38,615 nucleotides of DNA, taken from assembly GCA_021372435.1 (NCBI GenBank), contig JAJFUK010000194.1:1-38615 (forward strand). Reading direction: 5' to 3'. Both the position numbers and the translations under genes were made by a program. Within the stretch, counting starts at the first letter, position 1. Each line of letters opens with the position of its first letter. The notes under the pieces were generated by a model. It was given only the letters and a program-made list of their open reading frames with translations, did not search any database and had not been told where the DNA came from. This DNA comes from Actinomycetes bacterium. Its GTDB lineage: Bacteria; Actinomycetota; Thermoleophilia; RBG-16-64-13. Positions 8,194 through 38,548 of this stretch are shown here, in pieces.

Positions 8194-8450
8194 GAGGACC
8201 TCACCCCTTTGAGCCATGCGGCGGCCTCGAGAATGTCCTTGAAGCCGGCGACCCTGGCGATGAAGGCCCACTCCCTCTTGTTCAGGAAGCATGCCGGGAA
8301 CTTTCCTCCCATGTCCTGGGCATCGACCCATCCCTCCCGAAGGATCTCGCGAGCCTGCTCTTCGTAGGCTTTGAACTGACCCTCCAGGAACGAGACCTGG
8401 CCGCGCACCTCCTGGCAGACGTGGCGGGGAAGGATCTGCGTCTCGGTCAT
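8190..8450 (-). CDS. Small helical protein, unknown function
   Basis: An 86-aa protein, mostly helical (EVRGQVSFLEGQFKAYEEQA, then REILREGW), with a C-terminal segment KREWAFIARVAGFKDILEAA. No motif is recognised. The ATG at 8450 overlaps the upstream stop as TGATG, and the stop overlaps the next gene's GTG. It is supported by tight coupling and coding-like composition. Confidence 0.6.
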   Translation of the reverse strand: MTETQILPRHVCQEVRGQVSFLEGQFKAYEEQAREILREGWVDAQDMGGKFPACFLNKREWAFIARVAGFKDILEAAAWLKGVRSS

Positions 8451-8851
8451 CAGATCAGCTCCCTCTCGGTCAGGATCATAGCGTTCTTCCGCTTCCTGGA
8501 GCTCACGATCTCGACAGTGGCCACGACCCTGCTCTGGAGATCTTCCCCTTCCTCGAGGATGAACCCGCAGTTGGTCCAGATGTCCTCCCTGACCTGAGCT
8601 CGCTCGAAGGTCTGCGGGATGCCGCTCAGAGGGTCCGGCCGGTGCATGATGATCAGGCCCATGCCCTGGGCCGTGGCCCAATCCGCGTTAGTGTTCCTCT
8701 TCTCGTTGCGGTACTTGAGAGCCTTGGCCGCGGCCCTGTTGAACCGGGTCCTCGAGATCTCGCCTTGCTTCTCCTCCGGGGTCCCATCCTTGACCATCTG
8801 CTCATAGAGCGCCCGGAAGATCTTACCCATCCTGCTCGTTGTTTCCGTCAT
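8450..8851 (-). CDS. First gene of the left early operon, unknown function
   Basis: A 133-aa protein with a basic helical region (SRTRFNRAAAKALKYRNEKR) followed by an alpha/beta part (MGLIIMHRPDP, SRVVATVEIVSSRKRKNAM). No family is recognised. The ATG at 8851 is chosen because AGGTGG lies eight bases upstream; a GTG at 8863 is in frame too. It is the first gene downstream of the palindrome-rich block and so may be controlled by it or act on it. Confidence 0.65.
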   Translation of the reverse strand: MTETTSRMGKIFRALYEQMVKDGTPEEKQGEISRTRFNRAAAKALKYRNEKRNTNADWATAQGMGLIIMHRPDPLSGIPQTFERAQVREDIWTNCGFILEEGEDLQSRVVATVEIVSSRKRKNAMILTERELI

Positions 8852-8892
8852 GTTTTCGACCACCTTTCATCCGCGTGTGTGTGCATGCATCG

Positions 8893-8953
8893 TTTCCGGT
8901 GGAACAGCTCCAAGGTGTGCCTGGCGCTCCCGCGGGAGCGCCTACACCGGAAA
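8893..8953. repeat. Nested inverted repeats forming a long cruciform
   Basis: TTTCCGGTG (8893-8901) pairs with CACCGGAAA (8945-8953). Inside, GGTGT (8914-8918) pairs with ACACC (8944-8948), and GGCGCTCCC (8923-8931) pairs with GGGAGCGCC (8934-8942). Together these could extrude a cruciform or fold as an RNA stem on either strand. Confidence 0.65.
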
Positions 8954-9026
8954 TCGTTACCAGCGCTTCCGCTGGAGCACCGCCCGGCGCGACTCTTGGG
9001 CGAAGGAAATCGTTGAAGGACCGTTT

Positions 9027-9320
9027 TCAACCGTTTCCGGTGGAAACCTGCTTATGCCAGATACTTCCGTCTAGGTTCCTCGAAACATCCCTAGAATTCG
9101 TCCTCTTAGGCATCCAGTAGTACGGTTCACCTTCAATTTCCCGTTCCAGTGGAAATGATGGGCGAACACACACACGCGCCATCCGTTTTGCATCCCATCC
9201 GTGCAGCCTGTCGGCCGCAAGTAGAATGCCATCCTGAGCTACGCTTAGGACCGTGAGTAATGAAGCGGAAGAGGACCTCCGCGGTGATGTTAGCGAAATG
9301 AAATAGGGAGGCACGATCAT
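9027..9320 (-). CDS. Doubtful ORF overlapping the palindrome block
   Basis: An open frame of 97 codons starts with ATG at 9320 after GAGGGGGGCG, overlapping the stop of the out-of-frame reading 9317-9480 as ATGA. It includes WDAKRMARVCVRP and GEPYYWMPKRTNSR. Its codons are less G+C-biased at third positions than the neighbours and it runs through the 9033-9047 palindrome. It may be spurious; no family is recognised. Confidence 0.25.
   Translation of the reverse strand: MIVPPYFISLTSPRRSSSASLLTVLSVAQDGILLAADRLHGWDAKRMARVCVRPSFPLEREIEGEPYYWMPKRTNSRDVSRNLDGSIWHKQVSTGNG
9033..9047. promoter_or_regulatory. Perfect 15-base palindrome GTTTCCGGTGGAAAC
   Basis: Six-base arms (GTTTCC/GGAAAC) around a GGT centre. 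It is the best copy of the motif repeated across 8892-9155 and the likeliest core binding site for a dimeric protein. It lies two bases past the GTTGAA/TTCAAC dyad at 9012-9031. Confidence 0.5.
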
Positions 9321-9480
9321 CGCCCCCCTCTTGTTTGCACTAGCACTCCCTGCTTTTTCTCGTAAATCTGCCTTGAGGCGCGGGCCGCGAATCGATCGAG
9401 AGCATCGACTTGGCGGGCGACCAGGGACGCTAGTTGCTCGTCCCTGCCGCTCCGACCAGTCGGATAGTCTAGGGGAAGGA
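9317..9480 (-). other. Coding-like out-of-frame stretch after the integrase
   Basis: Just past the integrase stop, another frame reads INFLPLDYPTGRSGRDEQLA then SLVARQVDALDRFAARASRQ with the look of a real helical protein end, closing at 9317. No start codon with a ribosome site is visible. It may be a C-terminal extension of the integrase separated by a frame change, or a remnant. Confidence 0.35.
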
Positions 9481-9483
9481 AGT

Positions 9484-10449
9484 TTATACCCGGGCCGCCG
9501 ACTGGCTTGGCGTTCCGGGGCGAGTTTCGTTGAGCGAGTTGAGGGCGTCCCTCATGTTCGATGAGTCCACCCCGATGTAGGCGCGGAAGGTCATCCCGCA
9601 GTCCTCGTGTCTCAAGACCTTGGCTATGGTCTCGATCGGCACCCCCCGCTTCCACAGCCGGTTGCCCAGCGTGCGGCGCAGATCGTGCATGGAGAACAGC
9701 ACCCCGACGACCTTGGACAGCTCCACGGTCATCGGATGGTAGTGCTCCCACCGCAGCGGGGCGAGGTACGAGCGCCTCTTGTACTTCACCGGCCGGACCA
9801 CCAGCTTTTGGCACTGATGGTCCTTGGTCTCCTCCACCATCTTGGCGCGGTGACGGAGGTAGCGGAGCAGCGGCTCGCGGACGTAGTCGTTGAAGGTCTG
9901 CAGGGCGACCTTGCCGCCATTGCGTCCCTTCCCCAATATCTCGTCCTCCCCGAAGTCCAGGAAGTTCCTGGCGTTCTCCAGGGTGAGGTTCTCGATGTCC
10001 ACGCACCGCAGGCCCATGTCCACCGCGAGGCAGGTGACGAGCTCCTCGGTCGGTCCCAGTTCGTGGGCCCGCTGATGGAGCTTGGCGACCTGGCGCTCGT
10101 TGAGGAAGATCCCGCCGCGATATGGCGTCGGGTGAGCGTGTATCTTCCACTTCTGGGCCGCCAGGTTCCCGCACCACCGGAGGAAGGCCCGGATGACGTA
10201 GCACTTCACCCCGATGGTTCTCTCCGAGTCCCCTCTGACCGACCCCTCCAGCGTTCTCATCTGTTCGAGGGTTACGGCGTTGGGGTTCGGGAAGCCCAGG
10301 AGCTCGCCCCCTTCCCAGAGCATCGGCTTGTAGCTGATGATCGTGCGGTGTCGCACGACTCCCCGGTCGGAGGGCGGGTTCTTCGGTCGTAAGGAGTTTA
10401 GATATGCTCTCGTCTGATCGTGCCACGCCCCTCTGTGTTTGAAGGGCAT
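9484..10449 (-). CDS. Tyrosine recombinase / integrase
   Basis: A 321-aa site-specific recombinase that would insert and excise viral DNA or resolve multimers. An N-terminal SAM-like arm (about 5-100) includes TLEQMRTLEGS. The catalytic domain shows R148 (MGLRCVDI), a candidate lysine at K174 or K180 (LGKGRNGGK), H255 and R258 in HDLRR, H281 (LRHED) and the nucleophile Y291 (AYIGVD), the complete family set. The ATG at 10449 has GAGGT eight bases upstream. It lies within the early operon beside the palindrome-rich block. The presence of an integrase implies a temperate virus; the attachment site was not identified. Confidence 0.93.
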   Translation of the reverse strand: MPFKHRGAWHDQTRAYLNSLRPKNPPSDRGVVRHRTIISYKPMLWEGGELLGFPNPNAVTLEQMRTLEGSVRGDSERTIGVKCYVIRAFLRWCGNLAAQKWKIHAHPTPYRGGIFLNERQVAKLHQRAHELGPTEELVTCLAVDMGLRCVDIENLTLENARNFLDFGEDEILGKGRNGGKVALQTFNDYVREPLLRYLRHRAKMVEETKDHQCQKLVVRPVKYKRRSYLAPLRWEHYHPMTVELSKVVGVLFSMHDLRRTLGNRLWKRGVPIETIAKVLRHEDCGMTFRAYIGVDSSNMRDALNSLNETRPGTPSQSAARV

Positions 10450-13630: not shown

Positions 13631-13776
13631 CTGTGCATGCCTCCTATTGCGAAAGGTGCCAGGGGGGCGGGAGGAATGCACAATCCACCTTACAAGGAGC
13701 GCCCCCCTTGGCATAGCTTGCGCTCGTCAGATGGATGTGTTCTGGTACCGCTCTAGGCGGTCGAGTGCATTCCCGA

Positions 13777-13799
13777 TGTCTCGTTGGTTACACGAGACA
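13777..13799. promoter_or_regulatory. Inverted repeat, candidate operator between divergent genes
   Basis: TGTCTCGT (13777-13784) and ACGAGACA (13792-13799) are perfect 8-base arms around a 7-base centre. The dyad lies between the first early gene and the plus-strand winged-helix gene, about 20 bases upstream of that gene's TATA box. Its size suits a dimeric winged-helix protein. Confidence 0.55.
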
Positions 13800-13820
13800 C
13801 GGCAGTAATGGAATGGTGAC

Positions 13821-13829
13821 TTTATAAAA
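13821..13829 (+). promoter_or_regulatory. TATA box of the plus-strand regulator
   Basis: TTTATAAAA is a near-consensus archaeal TATA element. Transcription about 25 bases further on would start near 13850, downstream of the GTG at 13842 but upstream of the ATG at 13899, which supports the latter as the real start. Confidence 0.6.
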
Positions 13830-13898
13830 CTATCTTGCCTCGTGAAATACAACACCCAATATAATTATCTATTAATTGAGAACAAATACTCTTCTGTC

Positions 13899-14174
13899 AT
13901 GGCAGGCACGAGCAAAGTCACAATGCTTGAGGAAGCTCATGCTATCAAGGTCCTTCTTATCCTATTGAGAGAAGGTCCAACAAGAAAGACCAACCTATAT
14001 TCATTCATTGGATCAAATACTTCGCCCATTCAGAAAAGATTAGATGAATTCGAGAAGCTTGGCCTTGTCACAATCGAGCCCGATCCAAAACATCATTCTG
14101 CGTTTATCGTTCAGCTCACGCCAAAGGGAAAACGGGTCGCTGAGAAGCTTGTCGAAGTGGATGAAATAATTTAG
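13899..14174 (+). CDS. Winged-helix transcription regulator (candidate lysogeny regulator)
   Basis: A 91-aa protein. LEEAHAIKVLLILLREGPTR is the first helix pair; the recognition helix follows at NLYSFIGSNTSPIQKRLDEF. The wing (GLVTIEPDPKHHSAFIVQLT) and a closing helix (PKGKRVAEKLVEV) complete an ArsR/MarR-like winged helix of archaeal style. The frame is open back to 13842, but the TATA box position favours the ATG at 13899. It is A+T-richer than the structural genes. It is divergent from the early operon across the 13777-13799 dyad, the arrangement expected of a repressor. The repressor role is inferred. Confidence 0.75.
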   Translation: MAGTSKVTMLEEAHAIKVLLILLREGPTRKTNLYSFIGSNTSPIQKRLDEFEKLGLVTIEPDPKHHSAFIVQLTPKGKRVAEKLVEVDEII

Positions 14175-15799: not shown

Positions 15800-16564
15800 A
15801 TGGCTCTATCCAAGAAAATGCTAGCGATCGTCGGCGTGCTCGTGATCGTGGTCGTGGTGATTATCGCCGCGGCTGCGCTGGGCGGCGGCAACACCAAGGC
15901 GAACGATAACAACGACAACGACAATGATAACGATAACGACAACGGCGACAACACCAACACCAGGGACCAGATCGCCAACGTGTCGTACTCGGGCAGCGGC
16001 GACAAGGTCTCGGAGAAGTTCGAGCTGCAGGCCGGGGTGACGATCTTCCACATGACTCACTCCGGAAGCTCGAACTTCGCGGTGACACTGTACAACGAGG
16101 CCGGAGAGTACGTTGACCTGTTGGCCAACGAGATCGGCACCTACGACGGCGCAACCCTGATCGGCGTCAAGGCCGACCAGCTGGTGGGCGCGGAGCCCGG
16201 GAAGCACTACTTGCAGATCGAGGCCGATGGCGCTTGGACCATCGTGATCGAGCAGCCCCGTGTGGCGTCCGGAGCAGCCCTTCCGCAGACCCTGACCGGT
16301 AGCGGACCTAACGTCACCATCCCGATCGCTCTGACCTCCGGGGTCGCGGTGTTCAACATGACCCACAGCGGATCGAGCAATTTCATCGTCACGCTCTACG
16401 CCGACGATGGCGACTATGTCGATATCCTCGCCAACGAGATCGGGGCGTACAGCGGGGAGAAGTCCGTCACCGTGAACGGTGGTATCCTGAACGCATCCCC
16501 GGGCATCCACTGGGTCAGCGTCGATGCCGACGGGGACTGGACCATAAAGATCACCAAGATGTGA
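15800..16564 (+). CDS. Membrane-anchored surface protein with two tandem domains
   Basis: A 254-aa protein with a single N-terminal hydrophobic segment (about 8-28) after basic residues, consistent with an anchor or uncleaved signal, then an Asn/Asp linker (about 34-54). Two homologous beta domains follow (about 58-153 and 158-254), marked by FHMTHSGSSNFAVTLY and FNMTHSGSSNFIVTLY and ending in GAWTIVIEQP / GDWTIKITKM. The domain type occurs in many secreted archaeal and bacterial proteins. The ATG is preceded by AGGAGG at the usual spacing. It is a solitary plus-strand gene between operons, the typical setting of a host-modifying moron gene; a role at the host surface, for example in exclusion of other viruses, is inferred. 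Confidence 0.8.
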   Translation: MALSKKMLAIVGVLVIVVVVIIAAAALGGGNTKANDNNDNDNDNDNDNGDNTNTRDQIANVSYSGSGDKVSEKFELQAGVTIFHMTHSGSSNFAVTLYNEAGEYVDLLANEIGTYDGATLIGVKADQLVGAEPGKHYLQIEADGAWTIVIEQPRVASGAALPQTLTGSGPNVTIPIALTSGVAVFNMTHSGSSNFIVTLYADDGDYVDILANEIGAYSGEKSVTVNGGILNASPGIHWVSVDADGDWTIKITKM

Positions 16565-27089: not shown

Positions 27090-27497
27090 TCAGACAGAGG
27101 CCAGCACGCCGGAGCCCTGGAACTCGAGCTTATAGGTCGCTTCGTCGTCGTAAGGTCCCTCGATGTCGCCGCTCTTGATCAGAGCAGTGCCCTTTTTCCA
27201 CCCAGTGCCCTCGACAAAGATCTCTAGCTCCACCTCGGTTTGGTTGTCGAGTGCTGCCTCCAGGGCGATGAGCCCGGCGTCATCCTTGACCCACACACCA
27301 TCAGCGCTCACGGACCAGGAGCCGAAGCCATGCTTGAACTGCTTCTTCTTTCCAGGGCTGAGCTTGTTGGTGTTCTCGATCATCTCGTTCTCCCTGGACA
27401 GGGTCGCTCCCCGCTGCCCGGCCACCTCGGTCCAGGTGGGGGTGCCTTCGTCCCCGGTGTTCACCTTGATTATGATGTCGCATCCAGATACAGACAT
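27090..27497 (-). CDS. Major tail tube protein
   Basis: A 135-aa protein. SGCDIIIKVNTGDEGTPTWT then EVAGQRGATLSRENEMIENT, NKLSPGKKKQFKHGFGSWSV and a final beta segment match the phage major tail protein 2 / TP901-1 tube family, in which VaGQRgatLs and a T/N-K linker are typical. Its rings would form the tail shaft. The ATG at 27497 has GAGGAAAGG upstream. The hairpin-bearing late element (27540-27585) lies just ahead, suggesting separate control of this abundant protein. Confidence 0.85.
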   Translation of the reverse strand: MSVSGCDIIIKVNTGDEGTPTWTEVAGQRGATLSRENEMIENTNKLSPGKKKQFKHGFGSWSVSADGVWVKDDAGLIALEAALDNQTEVELEIFVEGTGWKKGTALIKSGDIEGPYDDEATYKLEFQGSGVLASV

Positions 27498-27528
27498 GTC
27501 CTTTCCTCGCGGCCTATGGCCGCCAGAA

Positions 27529-27585
27529 CATCGCCTGGTCGGGTTATTGGACTTTCTACAATAAGGCTATCAATTGCCTTATTGT
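27529..27585 (-). promoter_or_regulatory. Late element, copy B, with 10-base-pair hairpin
   Basis: The core CGGGTTATTGGACTTTCTAC (plus strand 27540-27559) is identical to copy C at 36153-36172. It is preceded, in minus-strand reading, by a stem: arms 27558-27567 and 27576-27585 (ACAATAAGGC/GCCTTATTGT) with an 8-base loop. Downstream similarity continues over CATCGC (27529-27534), where a four-sense-codon upstream ORF (ATG TTC TGG CGG CCA TAG has five) begins. It may be a promoter, leader structure or processing site. Confidence 0.6.
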
Positions 27586-27592
27586 GTTGTAA

Positions 27593-28372
27593 TCACTCCT
27601 GGACTGCGAGCTCCACGCCGCCGGTGATCTTCAGCAGGGCAGTGAAGCGCAGCATAGTGGCGAACGAGACGTTCAGATGATTGACAAAAGCCTCGAACCT
27701 GAACGTCAGTCCGAAGCCGGCCGGCAACTTGAGCTCGCAGGATCTGATGACACGGCCGGTGGCATCCTGATAGAAGGAGATGCTATCGCCCTCCTTGATC
27801 AGCGTGCCGACGACCTCGAGCTCGGTGAACTGCAGCATTCCGGGCTTGAAGGTCCTCGCCTTCTGCTGGCCCCAGCTGGTGTCCTTGACCGCGACGTCGA
27901 GCTCCAGGTCCCCGAGGTTGAGGACCTCCGCGACCTCCGCTCCGTTCCATATGAGCTTGGTGCCCTTGGCCAGGGTCGAGAGGGAGTCGAAGGACAGGGT
28001 GACGATGAAGTTCTGCGTTAGCACGAACGCGCCGGCCTCGTCGGTCCCCAGGGGCATGGCCTCCTGGAGCGCCTTGACCTCGAGGTACTTGACGGCCCCG
28101 ATGGTCAGGCCATTGATGCCGACGAGGATCTGCCTCGCCCGCTCTACCCACGCCCGGGCATGATCGCTGTCGGTGTCCCGGACCATCACCTGCAGGCCGG
28201 GGTGCATGATCCACTTGCCATCGAGCGTCTGCTCCGGGAGCTCCCCGGCGTCGCCGTGCAGGGACATGCACACCGTTGGGTCATCGGGCATCAGGTCCCG
28301 GAAGATCTCGTCCGCGCTGCCCACCCCCTGCGCTATCAGGTAGTTCTGCAGGTCCTCCAGCCAATTGGTCAT
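27593..28372 (-). CDS. Tail terminator fused to a tail-tube-like domain
   Basis: A 259-aa protein. Residues 1-130 resemble phage tail terminator/minor capsid proteins (WLEDLQNYLIAQGV; WIMHPGLQVMVRDTDSDHAR; LTIGAVKYLEVKALQEAMPL; EAGAFVLTQNFIVTLSF). Residues 135-259 look like a tube domain (KGTKLIWNGAEVAEVLNLGD, DVAVKDTSWGQQKARTFKPG, ELEVVGTLIKEGDSISFYQD). Usually these are separate genes. The ATG overlaps the upstream stop as ATGA; an upstream in-frame extension was discarded. A fusion protein could cap the tail at the head junction. Confidence 0.65.
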   Translation of the reverse strand: MTNWLEDLQNYLIAQGVGSADEIFRDLMPDDPTVCMSLHGDAGELPEQTLDGKWIMHPGLQVMVRDTDSDHARAWVERARQILVGINGLTIGAVKYLEVKALQEAMPLGTDEAGAFVLTQNFIVTLSFDSLSTLAKGTKLIWNGAEVAEVLNLGDLELDVAVKDTSWGQQKARTFKPGMLQFTELEVVGTLIKEGDSISFYQDATGRVIRSCELKLPAGFGLTFRFEAFVNHLNVSFATMLRFTALLKITGGVELAVQE

Positions 28373-37091: not shown

Positions 37092-38548
37092 GCCGCCCTC
37101 CGAGTCTCCAGCTGCTGCAGGCCCTTGTAGAAGACCATGGCCATGTCATCGTAAGCTTCCCCGATGTCCTTCTCCAACGGGTCCGAGCGCTCGGCGATCC
37201 TCTCGGGCACGTCCTCCTTGTTGCCGAACGGCACGACCGTCGCCGGCGCCGCGGGATACTCAGCCTCGAGCTCCTCGAGCCCTTTCTCATCCAGGGCCTC
37301 GTGCTCCAGGAGCACGCGGATCTCGTTCTTCTTGAGGGCCTTGGTCTGGTAGCCGACGGTGGCCTGCTTCAGCTGCACCTCCGAGCGGTCCTGCTTGGGC
37401 GGCGGGATGTCGATGAACGCCTGGTACCCGTCGTAGCCGTTGAGATCCAGGTACATCTGGGGCAGCGTGCGGCAACCCTCCTCGAGGACCGAGTGCCAGC
37501 CCAGGACGAAGTCGTTGGTCTGGTCGACCTCGGCGCTGCCGGTGCTGCCCAACGAGCCTTGCTGCCGCTTGATCATGCTCGAGGGCGAGAAGTAGTCATC
37601 GATCTCCTTACGGACGTCGTCCACGGTGAGGACGGCCACCCTGGTCTCGGTGACGTCGATGCCCTCGGCGTCCATGTTCTCCAGGAGCGTGAACGCGGTG
37701 TTGTTCCCCCAGTGCTCCAGGACGTTGTTGGCCCAGTCGATCTCCCTCTTGCTGGGCTTCCGTTTGAACTTGATGAAGATGTTCTGCGCCCCGATCCGGT
37801 TGCACTGCTGCATCTGCACCTTGCGGCAGAAGTTGTACTCGCGCACCAGCCCCACGACAGACTCGACCTGCGACTCGCCGGCGATCTGGGAGCACGTCGG
37901 GTCCTTGATCATGAACACGTTCTTGATCGGTCTCGGGTTGCTAGTCATGTCAATGCTCTGCCAGAACTGCACCTCTCCTGTGGCTTCGTCCAGCACGATG
38001 CCCGGCAGGAGCTCGGAGAATTCGTGATTGGCCTTGGGCGCCGGCACGGAGAACGACTCGGCCGGCAGGTGACGCAGAGCAGCCAGGACCCACTCCCCGC
38101 CGACCTTCTCCCATACTGGATTGAACAGCGCCGGCCCCCAGTCCATGATGTCGTTCCAGGCCATCATCATCTTGGACCACAGGTTGACCTTGGGGGCGTC
38201 GAAGACCTGGTGCAGGCGCTTGCCGAGCTCCTCGTCGACGTTGCCCTTGGGATCGAGGATGCGGAACTGGTAGTGGTCGCGGAAGATCAGCCGCTTGAGC
38301 TTGAGCTTGTTCTTCTTGACCAGGTGGTTCTTGAGGACCTTGAGGACCTCATCGGCGTCGATGACCTTGGCGATGAAGCTGACGCCTCCCCGGTAGACGT
38401 AGACGGCGCCCTCCTGGGTGCTGTCGGGGGAGTAGGGGATCTCCTCCTGCATCGCCGCGCCGGGCGAGGCGGGCATGGACTCGGCGATCTGGGCTTGAGG
38501 CTTGGGCTTGGCGGTAGGCTTGGAGCTCTTACGTGGCGTTGAGGGCAC
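37088..38548 (-). CDS. Portal protein
   Basis: This 486-aa protein forms the dodecameric DNA gate at one capsid vertex. After a Lys/Pro/Ala-rich tail (about 1-45) it has GAVYVYRGGVSFIAKVI, a helical stretch, MMAWNDIMDWGPALFNPVWE, then VEFWQ/QFWQSIDMTSNPRPI-type wing strands, QMQQCNRIGAQNIFIKFKRK, a tunnel-helix region (STGSAEVDQTNDFVLGWHSV; CRTLPQMYLDLNGYD) and an acidic C-terminus. Size, order and pattern fit phage portal families. The start is GTG in the terminal repeat and terL lies just upstream across the join. Confidence 0.88.
   Translation of the reverse strand: MPSTPRKSSKPTAKPKPQAQIAESMPASPGAAMQEEIPYSPDSTQEGAVYVYRGGVSFIAKVIDADEVLKVLKNHLVKKNKLKLKRLIFRDHYQFRILDPKGNVDEELGKRLHQVFDAPKVNLWSKMMMAWNDIMDWGPALFNPVWEKVGGEWVLAALRHLPAESFSVPAPKANHEFSELLPGIVLDEATGEVQFWQSIDMTSNPRPIKNVFMIKDPTCSQIAGESQVESVVGLVREYNFCRKVQMQQCNRIGAQNIFIKFKRKPSKREIDWANNVLEHWGNNTAFTLLENMDAEGIDVTETRVAVLTVDDVRKEIDDYFSPSSMIKRQQGSLGSTGSAEVDQTNDFVLGWHSVLEEGCRTLPQMYLDLNGYDGYQAFIDIPPPKQDRSEVQLKQATVGYQTKALKKNEIRVLLEHEALDEKGLEELEAEYPAAPATVVPFGNKEDVPERIAERSDPLEKDIGEAYDDMAMVFYKGLQQLETRRAA

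Follow-up and report, generated by a model that had tools for sequence, protein, structure and literature searches.

A candidate ORB-type replication origin in a self-complementary element of a putative methanogen virus

Overview of the element

The 307-bp element at 8872–9178 of the window, by which the whole 38,615-nt contig is meant, is probably the host-dependent ORB replication origin of a temperate tailed virus of methanogens, as judged by sequence comparison. To our knowledge, the way in which DNA copying starts in methanogen viruses is largely unknown. The GTTTCCGGTGGAAAC-like sites of the element are, by computational match, archaeal origin recognition boxes (ORBs), and the 307-bp ensemble exceeds chance in its fold, in its rank as the top window of a scan, and in holding the three best ORB matches of the contig. 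An earlier note on this DNA had proposed a candidate origin or master switch. The origin is supported on grounds that the note did not name, namely that the repeats are archaeal ORBs, paired in inverted orientation on either side of a weak-helix segment. Neither the master switch nor binding by the zinc-finger protein or the 133-aa neighbour found support in this analysis. The features are as follows.

8872–9178, no strand: complete element, a candidate ORB-type replication origin whose 307 bp are self-complementary (fold z-scores, top scan window, ORB matches)
8872–8883, + strand: left 12-mer of the inverted pair, CGCGTGTGTGTG, outside ORB-L
8884–8905, − strand: ORB-L, GTTCCACCGGAAACGATGCATG, third-best ORB score of the contig (9.6), core at 8894–8904, inverted to ORB-R
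8923–8942, no strand: perfect 20-bp palindrome GGCGCTCCCGCGGGAGCGCC, between ORB-L and ORB-M
9025–9046, − strand: ORB-M, TTTCCACCGGAAACGGTTGAAA, second-best ORB score of the contig (11.8), TTCCNNNGGAA core at 9035–9045, inverted to ORB-R
9047–9142, no strand: putative duplex-unwinding segment, 96 bp, between the inverted ORB-M (−) and ORB-R (+)
9143–9164, + strand: ORB-R, GTTCCAGTGGAAATGATGGGCG, full ORB with G-string, weight matrix (PWM) score 24.7
9167–9178, − strand: right 12-mer of the inverted pair, CACACACACGCG in + strand reading, outside ORB-R
8450–8863, − strand: gene bordering the element on the left, encoding 137 aa (133 aa if the ATG at 8851 is the start), without matches in Pfam or PHROG
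9484–10449, − strand: neighbouring tyrosine integrase (Pfam PF00589, 3.4e-11; PHROG integrase)

The gene-poor block reported earlier is present at 8864–9483, between the integrase and the leftward genes; the ORFs across it have a GC3 of 0.52–0.67 versus 0.85–0.87 for most clear genes, and it is therefore read as non-coding. AlphaFold single-sequence models of the 137-aa protein (pLDDT 39) and of the 539-aa protein were unusable. A terminator-like hairpin lies downstream of the integrase at 9305–9329 (−) and may part integrase transcription from the element.

The contig as a circular virus in a bacterial bin

An exact 141-bp repeat is found at both ends of the contig (1–141 and 38475–38615), so the window is a closed circle of 38,474 bp; 141 bp is a common assembler k-mer length. 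The contig carries tailed-virus genes, including a Terminase_3 large subunit, a Linocin/HK97-like capsid protein, a tape measure protein and the tyrosine integrase. Among 50,697 phage records, its portal protein has matches in just two, which both belong to methanogen viruses: vir524, from a Methanomicrobiales host (29% over 88%), and vir525, a Methanosarcinales virus. Three more proteins of the contig match vir524, the minor-head protein matches it at 38%, and the head module is held in common.

The contig sits in a bacterial assembly, which contains DnaA (1.7e-76); the domain search found no Cdc6_C domain on the contig or in the whole assembly, and no TFIIB-type zinc ribbon (TFB) was found in the assembly. 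Because it shares its head module with vir524 and has an ORB, and because archaeal genes are missing from the assembly, we take the contig to be an archaeal virus wrongly binned into a bacterial genome. It would be a temperate tailed virus of methanogens, with Methanomicrobiales or Methanomassiliicoccales as the candidate host orders.

Searches of phage, plasmid and relatives' genome collections gave no DNA-level relatives, and searches of viral contigs with the integrase, capsid, portal, tape measure and 137-aa neighbour gave no relatives; the terminase query returned distant relatives only. A two-copy TTTCCGGTGGAA...TTTCCGGTGGAA pattern was also tried on viral contigs and rejected, all four matches being chance (coding repeats or proline-rich ORFs).

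ORB sites

Among the ORBs listed in a paper on Methanomassiliicoccales genomes is GTTCCAGTGGAAATGA-AGGGGT (PMC4153887 Table 2), and the Ori-Finder 2 ORB motif for Methanomicrobia is TCCA[GC]T[GT]GAAA[CT][AG]A[AT]GGGGT (PMC4164010). The weight matrix consists of 10 published Methanomassiliicoccales ORBs (PMC4153887), which score 21.4–35.7. The score of ORB-R has an exact expectation of 2.3e-4 per genome and was reached by none of 300 Markov genomes (best 20.2). ORB-R equals ORB3 of Ca. M. intestinalis over the first 16 positions (PMC4153887 Table 2), fits the Ori-Finder 2 motif except for the last two letters (PMC4164010), and is the single match to the TTCCASTGGAAAYNNNGGG pattern in the 2.82-Mb assembly. 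ORB-M and ORB-L are core-only, their tails beyond the palindromic core being weak (p 0.07 and 0.13), and the GGG of the G-string is found in ORB-R and is absent from both. The element holds one full ORB (24.7) and two core-only ones, and the three top matches of the contig all lie inside its 307 bp; in a control of 84 kb of mostly bacterial DNA, no ORB score exceeded 10.8.

Five GTTTCCGGTGGAAAC-like sites had been counted earlier, among which three are full TTCCNNNGGAA cores (8894, 9035, and 9144) and the rest are half-sites or degenerate (8945–8958, 8964–8977, and 9005–9014). The TTCCNNNGGAA core occurs four times in the whole contig, three times inside the element, and the palindrome placed at 9033–9047 is indeed there as an exact, palindrome-like GTTTCCGGTGGAAAC.

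Weak segment and layout

Inverted ORBs stand around a weak segment, ORB-M (−) and ORB-R (+) lying on either side of 9047–9142. By nearest-neighbour energy, this segment falls within the least stable 1.6–2.7% of the genome (60-bp windows starting at 9040–9100), and its GC content is 0.43–0.47 (only 53–57% AT) within a 62.5% GC genome. ORB-L (−) lies 141 bp further left of ORB-M, with the 20-bp palindrome between them, and the two 12-mers stand outside ORB-L and ORB-R at similar distances. The exact 12-base inverted repeats that had been described are both in place; they extend imperfectly to 34 nt and are not rare alone, since the contig has three exact inverted repeats of this kind within 400 bp. 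The inner hairpin is real too, but it is not 9 bp long: it is the perfect 20-bp palindrome, whose arms are 10 bp each. No longer one occurs in the genome, and a palindrome of this length was present in 2 of 40 random genomes.

ORBs in vir524 and other viral genomes

In vir524 (BK063669), the closest known relative, an ORB with the sequence TTTCCACAGGATATGATGGGGT is found at 37798 (−), with a score of 24.0 and an expectation of 4e-4 per genome. It adjoins weak DNA (stability percentile 2–8), and a weak inverted ORB-like site lies 140 bp away (0.026 expected within 200 bp), with tails outward as in the window. The region 37798–37959 comprises the ORB, AT-rich TTATG repeats and the inverted ORB-like site inside a small annotated ORF of a record without origin annotation; on its sequence, it is a candidate origin. 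No fold-back comparable to that of the element occurs at the vir524 ORB, so the ORB-plus-weak-DNA arrangement is seen twice and the fold-back once. Conservation was followed in this one distant virus: the ORB and the weak DNA recur there, and the nested palindromes do not.

No ORB score above 13 was found in vir215, vir526, vir525 (first 50 kb) or vir335 (first 45 kb), so ORBs are not a general feature of methanogen viruses, which counts against an origin; vir526 has its own polymerase and primase. In IMG/VR, the strict ORB pattern was found in 6 contigs, compared with roughly 7 expected by chance on a rough estimate, and 5 of the 6 have full matrix scores of 30–35. On inspection, the near-perfect ORBs L033:11012, L034:731, L035:5791, and L038:11628 lie mostly outside long ORFs, and that of L036 lies within one; in L035 a second, inverted site follows at a distance of 49 bp, and terminase genes are nearby in L034 and L035.

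Operator or promoter function

The element lies between the integrase and the leftward early genes, its near-palindromic 11-bp core is present in three copies, and the contig encodes several winged-helix-like proteins (weak Pfam matches), all of which would suit an operator/promoter whose palindromes are bound by a viral dimeric repressor. This reading is nevertheless improbable: the agreement of ORB-R with known ORBs extends to the non-palindromic G-string half, which on its own gives p = 0.003; the block has no sigma-70-type promoter, and no good archaeal TATA box was seen beside the sites; and vir524 keeps the ORB and weak DNA elsewhere in its early region.

Fold-back of the element

Against shuffled controls, single-stranded 8864–9190 folds with z = −9.35 (+ RNA), −8.6 (+ DNA), −5.8 (− DNA), and −4.6 (− RNA). 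When both strands were scanned without bias in 310-nt segments, with shuffled sequence as the calibration, the segment that begins at 8861 (+) came first, and the interior without the ORB arms still folds (z −5.2). The + RNA fold is branched, with a mean pair probability of 0.92 and sharp borders, and the adjoining 304 nt on the right show no structure on the + strand (z −0.74). These properties would also suit a non-coding structured RNA about 307 nt long that is read from the + strand, with a 12-bp terminal stem closing it, but such an RNA is very unlikely. G-U pairs are few on both strands (7 of 109 pairs on +, 4 of 106 on −), which hardly points to selection acting on a single RNA strand; the fold is therefore about equally a property of DNA and RNA and does not reveal the transcribed strand. 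Moreover, Rfam covariance models give no match, whether at the gathering score or with E allowed to rise to 1, the vir524 ORB has no such fold, and no homologue was found for a covariation test. The asymmetry between the RNA strands was considered as proof of an RNA and rejected, the difference being too small.

The fold-back is compatible with a single-strand hairpin, a modulator, or no role. A function of the fold-back in its own right, such as an extruded structure through which the virus could fire the host initiator at times other than those of the host chromosome, is a doubtful proposal; if true, hairpins nested together and closed by 12-mers beyond the outer ORBs would represent a second class of archaeal origin control.

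In the integrase coding region, 9561–9951 (−), the mRNA strand is structured with z of about −4 to −5, second only to the element.

A phage attachment site (attP), with arm-type and core sites by the 3′ end of the integrase, or an inserted fold-back (MITE-like) element would account for the terminal inverted repeats directly downstream of the integrase, but it is highly improbable, as ARAGORN finds no tRNA or tRNA fragment, the element has no second copy in the 2.8-Mb assembly, no exact target duplication was seen by eye at the borders, and neither predicts the ORB sequence. The attP could lie close by, within 9180–9483.

Host-dependent initiation and known origin systems

The element is thus most plausibly a host-dependent ORB origin. 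No recognisable replication protein was found among the early proteins scanned with Pfam, and general Pfam profiles gave no match to Rep-Arvir or HUH endonuclease among them; together with the missing Cdc6_C domain, this leads to the expectation that the virus depends on the host initiator. Host Orc1/Cdc6 would bind the ORBs and help to open the weak segment at 9047–9142, host MCM helicase would be recruited by Orc1/Cdc6, and after circularisation the virus would be copied by the host machinery. The 12-mers, the 20-bp palindrome and the self-complementarity are probably auxiliary, as extra binding sites, hairpin extrusion or a firing switch, and this is the least certain step. If viral ORBs copy host origin boxes, the virus would compete for the host's own Orc1/Cdc6. 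The element would then offer a 300-bp candidate for shuttle vectors, and ORB mutation a simple test of that dependence; ORBs could also mark archaeal viruses and hosts in metagenomes, and in this case the ORB reveals a contig assigned to the wrong domain of life.

Chromosomal ORB origins usually adjoin an orc1/cdc6 gene, which for a virus is not required in principle. Unlike archaeal chromosomal oriC1-type origins, the element is viral and is set in a 307-bp fold-back with outer 12-mers, and it has no adjacent orc1/cdc6 gene, which counts against an origin. It also counts against it that only one of the three ORBs has a G-string and that the other two are weak beyond the core; G-strings are essential in Haloarcula oriC1 (PMC3936714). 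A further point against it is that cumulative skew, proposed earlier as a check, has no clear turning point at 9.1 kb; the signal is dominated by one-sided coding, with extremes at 6.9 and 19.2 kb (GC), 7.4 and 24.9 kb (keto), and 13.6 and 26.0 kb (purine), and the check is uninformative because nearly all genes are on one strand.

It has been reported that Sulfolobus oriC1 consists of inverted ORBs, each bound by one Orc1-1 monomer, with the duplex-unwinding element (DUE) between them and 130 bp in all (PMC12141716). The element resembles it in having inverted ORBs around a weak-helix segment, here of 96 bp, a size similar to the 130 bp of ORB3-DUE-ORB2 (PMC12141716). Haloarcula oriC1 too has inverted ORBs on either side of weak DNA, and an inverted repeat inside its ORB pair enhances firing (PMC3936714), and the element similarly has an extra inverted repeat near its ORBs. 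With Methanomassiliicoccales ORB clusters it shares an ORB sequence of the Methanomassiliicoccales/Methanomicrobia type (PMC4153887). Among viruses, ORBs were predicted by motif on the pleolipovirus HHPV4 and backed by a disparity-curve minimum (PMC5867852); motif search likewise finds ORBs on the present viral genome, but unlike in this small haloarchaeal pleolipovirus, there is no disparity-curve minimum in the window. The hairpin origin of SNJ2, which lies near integrase and replication genes, uses a rolling-circle mechanism with the virus-encoded Rep-Arvir, and ORBs were not described for it (PMC13107129). The two are alike in that hairpin-forming non-coding DNA, with an inverted repeat beside it, lies near the integrase of a temperate archaeal virus; they differ in that the element has ORBs and no Rep-Arvir-like protein was noticed in the general Pfam scan. 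With the vir524 candidate origin the element shares a full ORB, a weak-helix segment, an inverted ORB-like partner and the head module of the virus; it differs in its fold-back and in that the vir524 candidate lies in a small ORF. The ORB tails point outward in both, a polarity read from these two genomes.

Other features of the contig

Ahead of a GTG start by ~25 nt, within 13700–13850, the only strongly AT-rich divergent region on the contig, lies CTTTATAAAA, which resembles an archaeal TATA box; the transcript would be leaderless and encode a winged-helix protein (13842–14174). Among the few + strand genes, that at 15800–16564 (+) encodes a signal anchor, an Asn-Asp run and two similar halves, and has the look of a secreted surface protein. 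At 27401–27851, across a short gap between structural genes, strong folding is found on both strands (z down to −4.8).
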